Source: an uncultured Eubacteriales bacterium
GTDB taxonomy: Bacteria; Bacillota; Clostridia; Christensenellales; Aristaeellaceae
Assembly: GCA_902764875.1 (NCBI GenBank)
Contig: CACWXP010000011.1
Location: forward strand, 1 to 64,000
DNA length: 64,000 nt
Reading direction: 5' to 3'
Shown: positions 6,634 through 10,928 of the stretch, piece after piece
Position numbering within the stretch: the first letter of the stretch is position 1
Layout: each line of letters begins with the position of its first letter
Made by a program: the position numbers and the translations under genes
The notes under the pieces: generated by a model
Told to the model about the DNA's origin: nothing
What the model saw: the letters and a program-made list of their open reading frames with translations, nothing else
The model's database searches: none

Positions 6634-6647
6634 CAGACCGGAGTCGC

Positions 6648-6679
6648 AAAAAGCAGACCGAAGTTCGGTCTGCTTTTTT
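6648..6679. terminator. Bidirectional terminator
   Basis: A 10-bp perfect stem (AGCAGACCGA / TCGGTCTGCT, 6652-6674) is flanked by AAAAA on the left and TTTTT on the right. It serves both the plus-strand mreB-like gene and the minus-strand synthetase fusion, which stop on either side. Confidence 0.9.
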
Positions 6680-6681
6680 GC

Positions 6682-9204
6682 TTACGGATTTTTGGCCGGG
6701 TTGCCGGCGGTGTCTATACCGGCGGCTCCCACAAGGCCCAGGCGCTGGGCGGCTTCCTCGCGCATCTTATACTTGAGGACCTTGCCGGCGGCGTTGAGCG
6801 GGAAGGCATCCACAAACTCGATATACTGGGGGACCTTATGGCGGGCCATATGGCTCTTGATATAATCGGTCATTTCCTGCGCCGTCAGCTGCGCGCCGGC
6901 TTTTTTGATGATGCAGGCCATGACGGCTTCGCCATAGCGGGCATCCGGCACGCCGATGACCTGGACATCCTCAACGGCGGGATGGGTGTAGATAAACTCT
7001 TCGATTTCCTTGGGGTAGATGTTTTCTCCGCCGCGGATGATCATATCCTTGAGGCGGCCGGTGATGAGGAAGGTTCCGTCCGGATTGCGGCGGGCCAGAT
7101 CGCCGGAATGGAGCCAGCCGTCGGCATCGATGGCGGCGGCGGTGGCATCGGGCATTTTATAGTAGCCCTTCATGATGTGATAACCGCGGGAGCAGAACTC
7201 GCCGTCCTTACCGTCAGGCAGTTCCTCGCCGGTTTCGGGATCGATGACCTTGCACTGGACATGGGGGAAGGCATAGCCGACGGTCTCGGTGCGGAGCTCG
7301 AGAGAATCGGTCCAGGCGGACATGGTGCTGCCGGGGGAAGACTCGGTCTGGCCATAGACACTTACGATGCCGCGCATATTCATTTCATCCGGCCGGGCGG
7401 CGCGCTTCATGAGTTCGGGCGGGCAGCCGGAACCGGCCATGATGCCTGTGCGCATATAGGAGAAATCCGTCTTGCGGTAGTCCTCGTGGTTAAACATGGC
7501 GATAAACATGGTGGGGACGCCGTGGAAACAGGTGATCCGCTCCTGGTTGATACAGGCGAGGGAGTTTTTCGCCGAGAAATAGGGCAAGGGGCAGATGGTG
7601 GTTCCATGGGTCATGGAGGCCGTCATGGCCAGGACCATGCCAAAGCAATGGAACATGGGGACCTGGATCATCATACGGTCGGCGGTGGAAAGGCCCATGC
7701 GGTCGCCGATACACTTGCCGTCGTTGACGACGTTGTAATGGGTGAGCATGACGCCCTTGGGGAAACCGGTGGTTCCGGAGGTGTACTGCATATTGCAGAC
7801 ATCGTCGGGCTTGACGTTTGCGATCATGGAGCGGAGGGTTTCCAGCGGGACGGTATCCGCCCGGCGCATGGCCTGGTCAAAGGTGAGGCAGCCGGGCTGG
7901 GTGAAATCGACAGTGATCACATTCCGGAGGAAGGGGAGACGCTTGCAATGCAGGGGTTCGCCGGGCTTGCTGGCCGCGATTTCCGGGCAGAGCTCGTTGA
8001 TGATCTGGCGGTAATTGCTGTCCAGGGCCTTTTCGATCATGACGAGGGTATGGGTATCGCTCTGGCGGAGCAGATAATCCGCCTCGTGGATTTTATAGGC
8101 CGTATTCATGGTGACGAGGACGGCGCCGATGCGGGAGCAGGCCCAGAAGGAAATATACCAGGCAGGGACATTCGTGGCCCAGACGGCGACCTTGGAACCG
8201 GCGGTTACGCCGAGGGAGATCAGGGCCCGGGCAAAGCGGTCCACATCGTCGCGGAACTCGGTGTAGGTTCGGGTGTAATTCAGGGTCGTGTACTTGAAGG
8301 CATACTGGTCCGGGAATTCCTCCGCCATGCGGTCCAGGACCTGGCCGAAGGTTTCATCGATGAGCTCGTCCTTCTTCCAGACATAGCGGCCGGTGCCGTC
8401 ATGGTTGAAATAAAGGGATTTCTTCTTGCCCTTGGGGTTGTCGAAACGGTTCATATAGTTGACGAAATGGGAGAAGATGATTTCACGGTCGGTGAGATCT
8501 TCCATCCACTCCGTTTTCCATTCCAGGGAGATGAAACCGCTGTAATCGATGGAGGAGAGGGCGTTCATCATGCCGGCGACCGGGAGGGTGCCTTCACCGA
8601 TGAGGTTATAGGACCCATCGTCGTTGGAATCGCGGAGATGGACATGCTTCACATAGCCGCCGAGGTTGCGGATGGTGGTATCCGGGGTTTCATTGAAATC
8701 CCGGTAGGGATGGTGAATATCCCAGAGGGCGGCCAGCTCGTCGCAGGCGTAATCGTCCATGAGGGCGCGGAGGCGGGAAGTATCCGCAAAAATGCCGGTG
8801 GTTTTGATGAGCAGGGTGACCTTTGCCTTCGCGGCATCCGGCAGCACTTCGGAGAGGAAGAGGCGGACCTGATCCTCATTGTCCTGCAGGGCGCAGACGG
8901 AGACATATGGCACATGCATGGCGCCGGCGGTTTCGAAGAGCAGGCGGACTTCGGCCGGATCGGTCTTCGAATCGGAAATATCAAGAGACGTATCGAAGCA
9001 GGGGATCTTCAGCCCGTACTCCTCGAGGAGGCGCTCGGTTTCGTTGCGGTTATACTTATGAAAGGGGCCGCCGCGATCCGTGAGGGCGCTGATTTTATTC
9101 AGATTGTAGACCTCGATGCCGCGGAACTGCATTTCGCAGGCATCCTCGACCTGGCGGATCCAGTCGTTATCGCGCCAGCCGCGGGTTGAAAAAGAAAGAT
9201 TCAC
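6682..9204 (-). CDS. Fusion: TIM-barrel sugar isomerase/epimerase-like domain + acyl-CoA synthetase
   Basis: An 840-residue two-domain protein. Residues ~1-265 are a xylose-isomerase-like TIM barrel (IolE/Hyi/AP-endonuclease-2 superfamily) with the usual metal-site segments FRGIEVYN, LWDIHHPYRDF, KHVHLRDSN and SLEWKTEW. Residues ~290-825 are a complete AMP-forming acyl-CoA ligase: P-loop YTSGTTGFPKGV (~473), YGQTESSP, GWLHSGDLA, ITGRLKDMIIRGGENIYP and the catalytic Lys motif NAAGKVLK (~807). It should activate a carboxylic acid to its CoA thioester in the cytoplasm; the role of the isomerase-like half is unknown. It starts at a GTG that overlaps the stop of the LeuA-like gene by 4 bases (GTGA), with GAGGAGG 7 bases upstream, so the two are translationally coupled. 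Confidence 0.88.
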   Translation of the reverse strand: MNLSFSTRGWRDNDWIRQVEDACEMQFRGIEVYNLNKISALTDRGGPFHKYNRNETERLLEEYGLKIPCFDTSLDISDSKTDPAEVRLLFETAGAMHVPYVSVCALQDNEDQVRLFLSEVLPDAAKAKVTLLIKTTGIFADTSRLRALMDDYACDELAALWDIHHPYRDFNETPDTTIRNLGGYVKHVHLRDSNDDGSYNLIGEGTLPVAGMMNALSSIDYSGFISLEWKTEWMEDLTDREIIFSHFVNYMNRFDNPKGKKKSLYFNHDGTGRYVWKKDELIDETFGQVLDRMAEEFPDQYAFKYTTLNYTRTYTEFRDDVDRFARALISLGVTAGSKVAVWATNVPAWYISFWACSRIGAVLVTMNTAYKIHEADYLLRQSDTHTLVMIEKALDSNYRQIINELCPEIAASKPGEPLHCKRLPFLRNVITVDFTQPGCLTFDQAMRRADTVPLETLRSMIANVKPDDVCNMQYTSGTTGFPKGVMLTHYNVVNDGKCIGDRMGLSTADRMMIQVPMFHCFGMVLAMTASMTHGTTICPLPYFSAKNSLACINQERITCFHGVPTMFIAMFNHEDYRKTDFSYMRTGIMAGSGCPPELMKRAARPDEMNMRGIVSVYGQTESSPGSTMSAWTDSLELRTETVGYAFPHVQCKVIDPETGEELPDGKDGEFCSRGYHIMKGYYKMPDATAAAIDADGWLHSGDLARRNPDGTFLITGRLKDMIIRGGENIYPKEIEEFIYTHPAVEDVQVIGVPDARYGEAVMACIIKKAGAQLTAQEMTDYIKSHMARHKVPQYIEFVDAFPLNAAGKVLKYKMREEAAQRLGLVGAAGIDTAGNPAKNP

Positions 9205-10622
9205 GCCTCTTCCTCCTCATAGATGATTTTGTTCAGGGCGTTGATATAGGCCATGATGCCGGCGCCGACAATATCGGTGGAAATGCCCTTGCCGGAATAG
9301 AGCTTGCCTTCGGAACGGAGGCGGACCAGGGTTTCGCCCATGGCCTCGCGGCCCTCGGTGACCGACTGGATCTGGAAATCGTCCAGCTCGAAATGGCGGC
9401 CGGTGGCCTTTTCGATGGAATTGAAGGCGGCGTCGATGGCGCCGTCGCCGGTGGAGATGCCCTCCAGGGGCTTGCCGTGGAAGGAGAGCTTCATATGGGA
9501 CATGGCGCCGATGGCGCTGCCGGTATTGATAACATACTGGACATCGGTGTAGGCCGGGGGAACCTGGAGCGCCTCGGTGGCCACGATGGCTTCCAGCTCC
9601 TTGAGGGTGATGGACTCCTTGGAGCCGGCGAGGGCGCCGAAGCGCTGCCAGACCTTTTCCAGATCCTCCTCGGTGAGATCGTAACCCATTTTGATGATGG
9701 CCCGGGAAACGGACTCCCTGGACTCATGGGTATTGACGGTGGCGTTTGAGCGGCCGTCGTCCCCGGCACGCTCCTGACGGAAGGAATGGCCCAGGCCCGT
9801 ACGGCAGAGATTCTCGATCTGGGCCGTAAGGGTGAAGAGTTTCTCCACGCCCATCCGGATCACGACATTGAACATCTTCTGCTTGATATTCAGGATATTG
9901 ACGATATGCTTCATGGAAATGCCATCCGTTCGGAAGGCGGCGGCCTTGATTTCGCGGACGCCGCACTGGACCGCGGAGATGGCGCAGGCATCGGCCAGGT
10001 TCAGGGCGTCGGAGCAGGAATAGCCGACGGTGACTTGGGCAAGTTCCGGCACGTCTTCAAAGAGGGATTTCAGGAAAACGGCGGTTTCCTCCGGCAGCAT
10101 GGAACCGGCAGTATCGCAGACGGTGACGGTGGTTGCGCCGGCTTCGACGACCTTTTTCAGGAGGGAGCGGAGGAAAATTCCGTCGGCACGGGTGGCATCG
10201 ACGGCGATGAATTCCACATCGGAGGTGACTGCGCGGCACTTCTTCACGGTGTTCACAATCCGCTCGGACAGGGCGTCGGGCTTCAGATGGGAAAGATATT
10301 CCATCTGGACGGAGCTGACGGGGGCCGAGACCTGGAGCCGGGGCTCCCGGGCGTCCTTCAGGGCGGAGAAGACGAGATCCACTCCGTCGTCCTCAAAGGA
10401 GACGGGCACGGCGATGCGGGCGTTCCGGACGGTCTGGGAGACGGAACGAATGAGCAGGGAATCGATCTTTTTCTGGCTGATGGGTTTGAGCTCGATGAGA
10501 TCGATACCCAGCTTGTCCAGGAGCCGGCAGAGCTCGATGGTTTCGCGGAAGCTGAGCTGCGGACTCTTTTCGCCCTGGCGCAGGGTGCAGTCACAGATCC
10601 GGATTGTTTCGGTATTTCCCAT
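9201..10622 (-). CDS. 2-isopropylmalate synthase-like protein, catalytic metal site degenerate
   Basis: A 473-residue protein with the two-part LeuA architecture: a DRE-TIM HMGL-like barrel (~1-280) and a LeuA allosteric domain (~345-470; LEGISTGDGAIDAAFNSIE, IVGAGIMAYINALNKI). The signature DTTLRDGEQ is DCTLRQGEK (11-19), and the metal-binding HxHND motif is YSCSD (201-205). The later GERAGN motif is replaced. CDTAGSMLPEE is kept. It is therefore unlikely to be a normal isopropylmalate synthase; it may do other chemistry or be regulatory. The start at 10622 has AAAGGAGG about 10 bases upstream; the longer in-frame N-terminus would be translated leader RNA. It is preceded by a T-box-like leader and its own promoter. 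Confidence 0.85.
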   Translation of the reverse strand: MGNTETIRICDCTLRQGEKSPQLSFRETIELCRLLDKLGIDLIELKPISQKKIDSLLIRSVSQTVRNARIAVPVSFEDDGVDLVFSALKDAREPRLQVSAPVSSVQMEYLSHLKPDALSERIVNTVKKCRAVTSDVEFIAVDATRADGIFLRSLLKKVVEAGATTVTVCDTAGSMLPEETAVFLKSLFEDVPELAQVTVGYSCSDALNLADACAISAVQCGVREIKAAAFRTDGISMKHIVNILNIKQKMFNVVIRMGVEKLFTLTAQIENLCRTGLGHSFRQERAGDDGRSNATVNTHESRESVSRAIIKMGYDLTEEDLEKVWQRFGALAGSKESITLKELEAIVATEALQVPPAYTDVQYVINTGSAIGAMSHMKLSFHGKPLEGISTGDGAIDAAFNSIEKATGRHFELDDFQIQSVTEGREAMGETLVRLRSEGKLYSGKGISTDIVGAGIMAYINALNKIIYEEEEA

Positions 10623-10644
10623 GGTTGAATAACCTCCTTTGGTT

Positions 10645-10893
10645 ATTGCGAAAATAAAAGCCCCAAAAGCGATTGCTCCGGGGACGAAAAGGGAGTGCAG
10701 TTTCATCTCGGACTCAATCAAGTCCACAGCCGATAACGGGGCATCCGGGCTTCATTACTGGAGCAAAACTCGTTCACAAAACCGGCTCCGGAAGCAGTCA
10801 GCTCTCTTTCCTGTGCTGCCTCACACCAACCGGCAGCTCTCTGCAACATTCGGGAGAGAATTCTTTCCTTCATTGCCTTTGGTCTATGAAATT
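10645..10893 (-). ncRNA. T-box-like leader riboswitch upstream of the LeuA-like operon
   Basis: The transcript from 10893 downwards contains the hallmark T-box Stem I apex AGAGAGCUGCC-GGUUGGUGUGA-GGCAG (10814-10842). It then returns through GAAAGAGAG to a specifier-loop-like stretch CUGACUGCUUCCGGAGC (around 10785-10801). By spacing to the conserved GGAGC the specifier would be CUG (Leu, plus 10795-10797), but UGC (Cys) in the next register is possible. The 3' end is a hairpin CGUCCCCGGAGC...GCUUUUGGGGC followed by UUUUAUUUU (10651-10686), a terminator just before the SD. I could not find the canonical GGGUGGNACCGCG T-box sequence, so the antiterminator half is atypical. Expected role: read tRNA charging and gate the operon. 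Confidence 0.65.
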
Positions 10894-10899
10894 AGTGGC

Positions 10900-10928
10900 A
10901 TCCTACCATAATTCAGGTGCGGTGTCAA
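10900..10928 (-). promoter_or_regulatory. Promoter of the leader/LeuA-like operon
   Basis: Minus-strand TTGACA (10923-10928), 17-bp spacer, TAGGAT (10900-10905). Transcription would start near 10893 and give a ~270-base leader. Confidence 0.8.

Follow-up and report, generated by a model that had tools for sequence, protein, structure and literature searches.

What is the function of a gene that resembles leuA but encodes a protein stripped of its catalytic residues, and that is followed directly by a gene for an acyl-CoA ligase? This question is raised by a locus on the reverse strand at positions 6682-10928 (promoter to the stop codon of the second gene) in the window analyzed here, a 64,000-nucleotide stretch of contig CACWXP010000011.1 from an uncultured Eubacteriales bacterium (GCA_902764875.1). 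In our view the operon is likely to belong to a three-arm system for converting branched short-chain fatty acids to branched-chain amino acids, in which it would serve as the leucine arm.

In the proposed leucine arm, uncharged tRNA-Leu would let transcription pass a T-box leader, the ligase domain of the fusion protein encoded by the second gene would convert isovalerate to isovaleryl-CoA, a 2-oxoacid:ferredoxin oxidoreductase (VorBAC, or VOR) would reductively join isovaleryl-CoA and CO2 to form 2-oxoisocaproate, and a branched-chain aminotransferase would convert this to leucine. Two further ligases, XL1 and XL2, would act by equivalent steps on 2-methylbutyrate for isoleucine and on isobutyrate for valine, each ligase gene being turned on by its own uncharged cognate tRNA via a T-box. 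The gene content, conservation, linkage and specifier codons of this system are observed, and the chemistry is deduced from them. The original prediction, made from the window alone, was of a small tRNA-sensing pathway that makes or uses an acyl-CoA. The leucine specifiers, the conservation of the pair and its linkage to VOR, aminotransferase and XL genes in part of the relatives speak for such a pathway, but not for a stand-alone pair; the other parts of the system lie elsewhere in the source genome, away from the two genes.

The gene pair and its distribution

The first gene (9201..10622, reverse strand; ATG at 10622 and TGA at 9201) is preceded by AAAGGAGG and encodes a 473-residue protein in which Pfam and NCBIfam searches and alignment place an HMGL-like domain without its HxH motif (104.3 bits) followed by a LeuA_dimer domain (97.9 bits against a cut-off of 24.9), both above their Pfam cut-offs. 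The second (6682..9204, reverse strand; GTG at 9204, stop codon ending at 6682) encodes an 840-residue fusion of a TIM barrel (8401..9204; AP_endonuc_2, 60.7 bits) and an acyl-CoA ligase (6781..8334; AMP-binding, 299.7 bits, and AMP-binding_C, 67.4 bits), every match again exceeding its cut-off. The stop codon of the first gene and the start codon of the second overlap in a GTGA at 9201..9204, suggesting that the two are translationally coupled. The neighboring genes resemble MreB and PhoH, as read by eye from translated open reading frames (ORFs) with no search made, and therefore no leu or ilv gene adjoins the pair. The original prediction had the positions and description of both genes right, including the overlap, the TIM-barrel/acyl-CoA synthetase fusion, the missing metal-binding histidines of the LeuA-like protein and the absence of adjacent leu or ilv genes.

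When 84,980 species genomes were scanned, 47 loci were found, on contigs titled mostly as rumen or gut Clostridia and Oscillospiraceae. Among the relatives 49 of 61 were matched at an E-value of 0.001, a figure that takes in genomes with canonical LeuA alone; the degenerate LeuA-like gene itself was found in 27 of 37 genomes of the genus (the ten without it have a completeness of 54-85%) and, elsewhere in the order, in four of 24 genomes. Of 196 genomes drawn evenly from the class, 19 are carriers, the source genome included; they come from 13 families, and in all 19 the barrel and ligase lie next to the gene and HxH is absent. After removal of identical genes, the barrel domain is directly downstream of the LeuA-like gene at 89 of 90 distinct loci, the lone exception being at a contig end, so that the two genes do occur side by side and the possibility that they are never conserved together is excluded. 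Two further contigs stop before the ligase, and at the 87 of 90 loci where barrel and ligase are readable they share one open frame in 84; L038 is out of frame, and L004 and L026 have a stop codon only at the C-terminal end of the fusion. The pair is more than a chance arrangement.

The ligase is the most conserved domain of the pair. Median identity to the window (95 loci, not de-duplicated) is 78% for the ligase, 58% for the barrel and 50% for the LeuA part, and four core motifs of AMP-forming ligases are retained in 41/41 full ligase domains and another in 39/41.

Two degenerate barrels

The catalytic motifs of LeuA are the HxH metal ligands, LRDGEQ and GxGERAGN. We aligned 71 distinct LeuA-like members, which form a single clade with support of 0.975, with canonical LeuA sequences from the same order. 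HxH is present in none of the 71 and in 11/11 canonical sequences (a second canonical-type sequence of L169 was excluded from 12), and in the window protein serine replaces histidine at both columns. LRDGEQ is eroded across the family, and in 70 or 71 of the 71 members there are gaps at the Gly and Glu columns of GxGERAGN and through most of the next loop. In the HMGL part, 70 members retain the first metal Asp. The window protein also falls below the NCBIfam equivalog cut-offs, scoring 283 against 532 at best and 248.9 against 598.7 for leuA_bact. It is thus like 2-isopropylmalate synthase in its HMGL-like fold and LeuA_dimer domain, but unlike it in its missing catalytic residues and in scores of about half the cut-off or less. 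As judged from the alignment, the protein lacks the residues required for isopropylmalate synthesis, and isopropylmalate synthase activity is very unlikely; annotating the gene as 2-isopropylmalate synthase would wrongly predict that leucine is made from pyruvate.

The catalytic residues are lost in the whole family compared, in agreement with the earlier view that this is not a normal leucine operon. A canonical leucine operon was rejected on this ground and because the source genome has neither KARI (ketol-acid reductoisomerase) nor a LeuC-sized gene, its only candidate being a 651-residue aconitase-type ORF; no search was made for LeuB or LeuD. LeuC-like ORFs of about 420-450 residues are present in six members of the genus (G001, G004, G008, G009, G016 and G035). 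In G035 (L102:5905-10426) LeuC-like and LeuD-sized ORFs adjoin, by eye, a malic-enzyme-like ORF and a transporter, an arrangement that looks like 2-hydroxyacid use and not leucine synthesis. Several genus members have a second HMGL match, which in G018 reads by eye as the citramalate-synthase type.

At its metal site the barrel of the fusion protein is likewise degenerate. The E-D-H-E metal quartet of xylose-isomerase-like TIM barrels is complete in 3/36 aligned members (only L034, L036 and L045) and broken in the other 33, and the window has lysine as its first ligand (K-D-H-E). The three complete quartets suggest that the barrel may have been enzymatically active in the ancestral fusion; because the metal site is broken in most members, the domain is probably structural or regulatory. 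We considered whether the LeuA-like protein and the TIM barrel might still be catalytic, acting without a metal or with different metal ligands on an acyl-CoA or 2-oxoacid and leading to a novel compound or to leucine by a new route. Retention of both barrels at 87 of the 90 distinct loci, which is everywhere that the whole pair is readable, would suit this explanation, as would the near-universal first metal Asp and the three complete barrel quartets; however, the universal loss of HxH, the gapped substrate loop, the broken metal site in 33/36 barrels and a regulatory part under more constraint than the catalytic part (see below) make it unlikely.

T-box specifiers name three amino acids

To read the specifier codons of the leaders we used a caller that is blind to the amino acid, with shuffled controls that keep base composition only. 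The main set comprised 91 distinct leaders of LeuA-like genes, from which canonical LeuA loci had been purged and L078 and leaders shorter than 350 nucleotides dropped. A specifier was read in 65 of the 91, with 64 encoding leucine (CTG in 33, CTC in 24, CTT in seven) and one reading TGA. The amino acid is fixed through synonymous codon changes, which argues that it is the tRNA read, and not the sequence alone, that is kept. For XL1, 32 of 34 leaders were read and all 32 specify isoleucine (ATC), and for XL2, 30 of 45 were read, giving 27 valine, two isoleucine and one alanine. The TGA reading (L061) and the alanine reading (L044, an XL2 leader without the motif) look like caller misreads. On shuffled leaders the main caller fired in 466 of 3400 cases with the amino acids scattered, and a strict version, from whose set canonical LeuA loci were not purged, fired in 46 of 3200 shuffles and returned leucine in 57/57, isoleucine in 31/31 for XL1, and four valine and one isoleucine among five for XL2.

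Thirty XL loci from the class sample, two of them from the source genome, gave 13 isoleucine, 10 valine and two other specifiers, with five unread. XL2 queries outscore XL1 queries on all ten valine genes, and four of the 13 isoleucine genes show no clear preference for XL1. Independently of the caller, nine T-boxes exceed the Rfam gathering score in nine stretches of relatives. The XL1 and XL2 leaders of the source genome match the T-box family with E-values of 3.8e-13 and 4.1e-16, both below the gathering score, and retain the antiterminator motif; their specifiers read as isoleucine and valine with an early version of the caller, which gave wrong extra matches. At three loci (L023, L024 and, from the early caller, L048) an XL2-like gene stands behind an isoleucine specifier and XL1 is missing from the fetched stretch; it is possible that XL1 was lost here and its T-box leader kept. 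Through the specifier codons each branched-chain amino acid is matched with one ligase, which provides direct substrate predictions.

Linked genes and genome-wide associations

In some relatives the pair is clustered with XL1 and XL2, which are fusion ligases with helix-turn-helix (HTH), cupin and AMP-binding parts, as well as with a P-loop ATPase, VorB-VorA-VorC and a branched-chain aminotransferase. Of the 47 loci, many of which are closely related, 28 have one or more of these genes in the fetched flank, with a VOR subunit at 16 and the aminotransferase at 10; L094-L097 were picked for a nearby VorB and are therefore not counted as a test of clustering. Among 18 evenly drawn carriers besides the source genome, an XL gene is nearby in 10, and VOR and aminotransferase genes in three. 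VorB and the aminotransferase exceed their NCBIfam cut-offs both in the relatives' cluster and in the source genome, where XL1 is on contig 3, XL2 on contig 4, the aminotransferase on contig 2 and VOR on contig 18.

This context bears on another interpretation of the domain pairing. Genome-mining software uses an HMGL-type synthase beside an AMP-binding enzyme to flag beta-lactone clusters, and the pair would fit such a biosynthetic cluster by domain content alone. The synthase part lacks its catalytic residues, however, the operon has a leucine T-box and a VOR and aminotransferase context, and no other biosynthetic gene was seen by eye beside it, all of which renders this explanation extremely unlikely.

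KARI is missing from all 37 genomes of the genus, the source genome among them, whereas 10 of the 24 genomes from elsewhere in the order have it. Within the class sample, 4/19 carriers and 109/177 other genomes have KARI (p 0.001), and an XL homologue (E-value 1e-200) is found in 18/19 carriers and 45/177 others (p 3e-9), both tests ignoring shared descent. VorB exceeds its cut-off in all 19 carriers and in three of 14 control genomes, these being the sets on which the models were run.

The same enzymes could in principle run in the opposite direction, with ligase, VOR and aminotransferase fermenting branched-chain amino acids to branched acids and gaining ATP at the ligase step. Both VOR and the aminotransferase catalyze reversible reactions and take part in the fermentation of amino acids, and the clustering of the genes would be identical for either direction. 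However, T-boxes for leucine, isoleucine and valine switch genes on at amino-acid shortage, which fits supply and not breakdown, and together with the lack of KARI in all 37 genus genomes searched this makes the catabolic direction quite improbable. If the system supplies amino acids as we propose, it also indicates which organisms are likely to rely on their neighbors for branched acids.

Several observations weigh against the three-arm proposal. Besides that of the window, 22 of the 91 leaders have neither the antiterminator motif nor a specifier, and in about 13 of these the LeuA-like gene directly follows VOR or aminotransferase genes. No VOR or aminotransferase gene is in the fetched stretch of 15 of the 18 evenly drawn carriers. 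KARI is depleted but not absent, being present in carriers G084, G093, G130 and G165; G093 also has no XL homologue at the E-value used, and some XL matches, including those of carriers G084 and G165, are without the HTH-cupin part. The scores of XL1 and XL2 against MbcS, their best NCBIfam model, are only about half of its cut-off. Lastly, the leader in the window lacks a part that the proposed control requires.

The leader in the window

A sigma-70-like promoter (10900..10928, reverse strand), found by a consensus scan, has the form TTGACA-17-TAGGAT with a TG ahead of the second hexamer and matches the consensus at 10 of 12 positions. It is followed on the same strand by the 5' sensing part of a T-box leader, from stem I up to the antiterminator (10703..10882), recognized by Rfam RF00230 (67.3 bits, E-value 1.8e-14) and by alignment with 10 relatives. 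The alignment shows stem I to be intact, along with the specifier loop and the middle part, and the specifier codon, located by its position relative to the paired specifier-loop stem, is CUG for leucine (10795..10797). The site at 10684..10700 corresponds to the antiterminator with GGGUGGUACCGCG (the UGGN bulge) that is present in 10/10 aligned relatives and is missing here. A terminator-like hairpin followed by CTTTTATTTT lies at 10661..10683. The score lies below the gathering score of 93 because the antiterminator is missing, and no Rfam family reaches its gathering score anywhere in the whole 64-kb window. The leader had been described from the window as T-box-like, which holds for stem I and the leucine specifier but not for the antiterminator in this genome.

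The antiterminator motif is kept in 68 of the 91 distinct leaders. Since the window leader has lost it, normal T-box readthrough is not expected in this genome, and the operon may be expressed at a low level or by read-through, or the assembly may be at fault at the leader. Loss of an element that all of the aligned relatives possess could also mean that in the source genome the operon is a decaying, silent remnant. We give this only a small chance, as both reading frames are intact, the promoter is good, the XL1 and XL2 leaders of the same genome retain the motif, and in a draft assembly of 67 contigs an assembly fault is possible.

A possible role for the LeuA-like protein

In the LeuA-like family the constraint is inverted, with the regulatory domain being the most conserved part of the protein: mean pairwise identity rises from 0.485 over the HMGL part to 0.652 over the regulatory part, whereas in canonical LeuA it falls from 0.570 to 0.411. 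Because the pattern of constraint favors the regulatory domain, we infer that the LeuA_dimer domain responds to leucine, or to a compound related to it, and modulates the ligase with which it is made. A more specific version is tentative, and we would put it at somewhat less than an even chance: the protein may be a LeuA-derived regulatory subunit whose old allosteric domain reads leucine and shuts off isovalerate activation, giving the operon two leucine sensors, one an RNA acting via tRNA and the other a protein, with the fused HTH-cupin parts serving similarly in the isoleucine and valine arms. A point against the sensor role is that two columns of the regulatory domain have glycine in 70 and 71 of the 71 members and glutamate in 8 and 10 of the 11 canonical sequences, and the sensed ligand may therefore not be leucine. 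The pseudo-LeuA is nonetheless a candidate case of a pseudoenzyme turned sensor that is open to test.

Relationship to known systems

Rumen bacteria that build leucine from isovalerate have been known since the 1960s, and the isovalerate carboxylation pathway of leucine synthesis in these bacteria is reportedly due to Allison and colleagues. The scheme proposed here is like that pathway in passing from acid to acyl-CoA, reductive carboxylation and amination, and unlike it in offering candidate genes and tRNA control, both proposed from sequence. Leucine formation by isovalerate carboxylation in the rumen is described in PMC7356843.

The Staphylococcus aureus methylbutyryl-CoA synthetase, MbcS, activates 2-methylbutyrate and isobutyrate but is a poor activator of isovalerate (PMC10026030). 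This substrate range fits XL1 and XL2 as ligases for isoleucine and valine and a separate ligase subfamily for leucine. MbcS is the best NCBIfam match of XL1 and XL2, which differ from it by the added HTH and cupin parts and the low score, and the leucine-arm ligase is nearer to subfamily PRK12583 than to MbcS, the PRK12583 score itself being under the cut-off. Its assignment as a putative isovalerate-CoA ligase comes from the specifier and context.

The leaders belong to the T-box family RF00230 and follow its logic, but here they stand upstream of a pseudo-LeuA and acyl-CoA ligases. In a T-box survey whose main text never uses the term acyl-CoA, T-boxes of leuA are reported from Geobacter and Pelobacter (PMC2494555). 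In the open full-text literature searched, we recognized no paper that identifies the ligases of the rumen pathway and accounts for their control, and nothing on T-box-controlled branched-acid ligases or on this pseudo-LeuA; the chemistry is old, and within that literature what is apparently new is the tRNA-controlled gene system with a pseudo-LeuA.

Other features

An inverted repeat flanked by A and T runs, noted by eye at 6644..6681, separates the fusion gene from the upstream gene that converges on it and is probably a terminator shared by both. The P-loop ATPase gene recurs just ahead of VorB (L094:16164-16835 and relatives) and its product is weakly ParA/NUBPL-like, at 21 bits and below the cut-off. 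An FMN riboswitch (111.7 bits; L098:2899-3024) lies within the 14-kb stretch of contig 18 of the source genome that also contains the VOR genes. Contigs 3 and 27 of the source genome carry two more indolepyruvate-type oxidoreductase loci (L099:5813-9512 and L100:2651-6687) with POR_N matches, each adjoining, by eye, an AMP-binding or phenylacetate-CoA-ligase-like ORF, and these may likewise supply aromatic amino acids from aryl acids.

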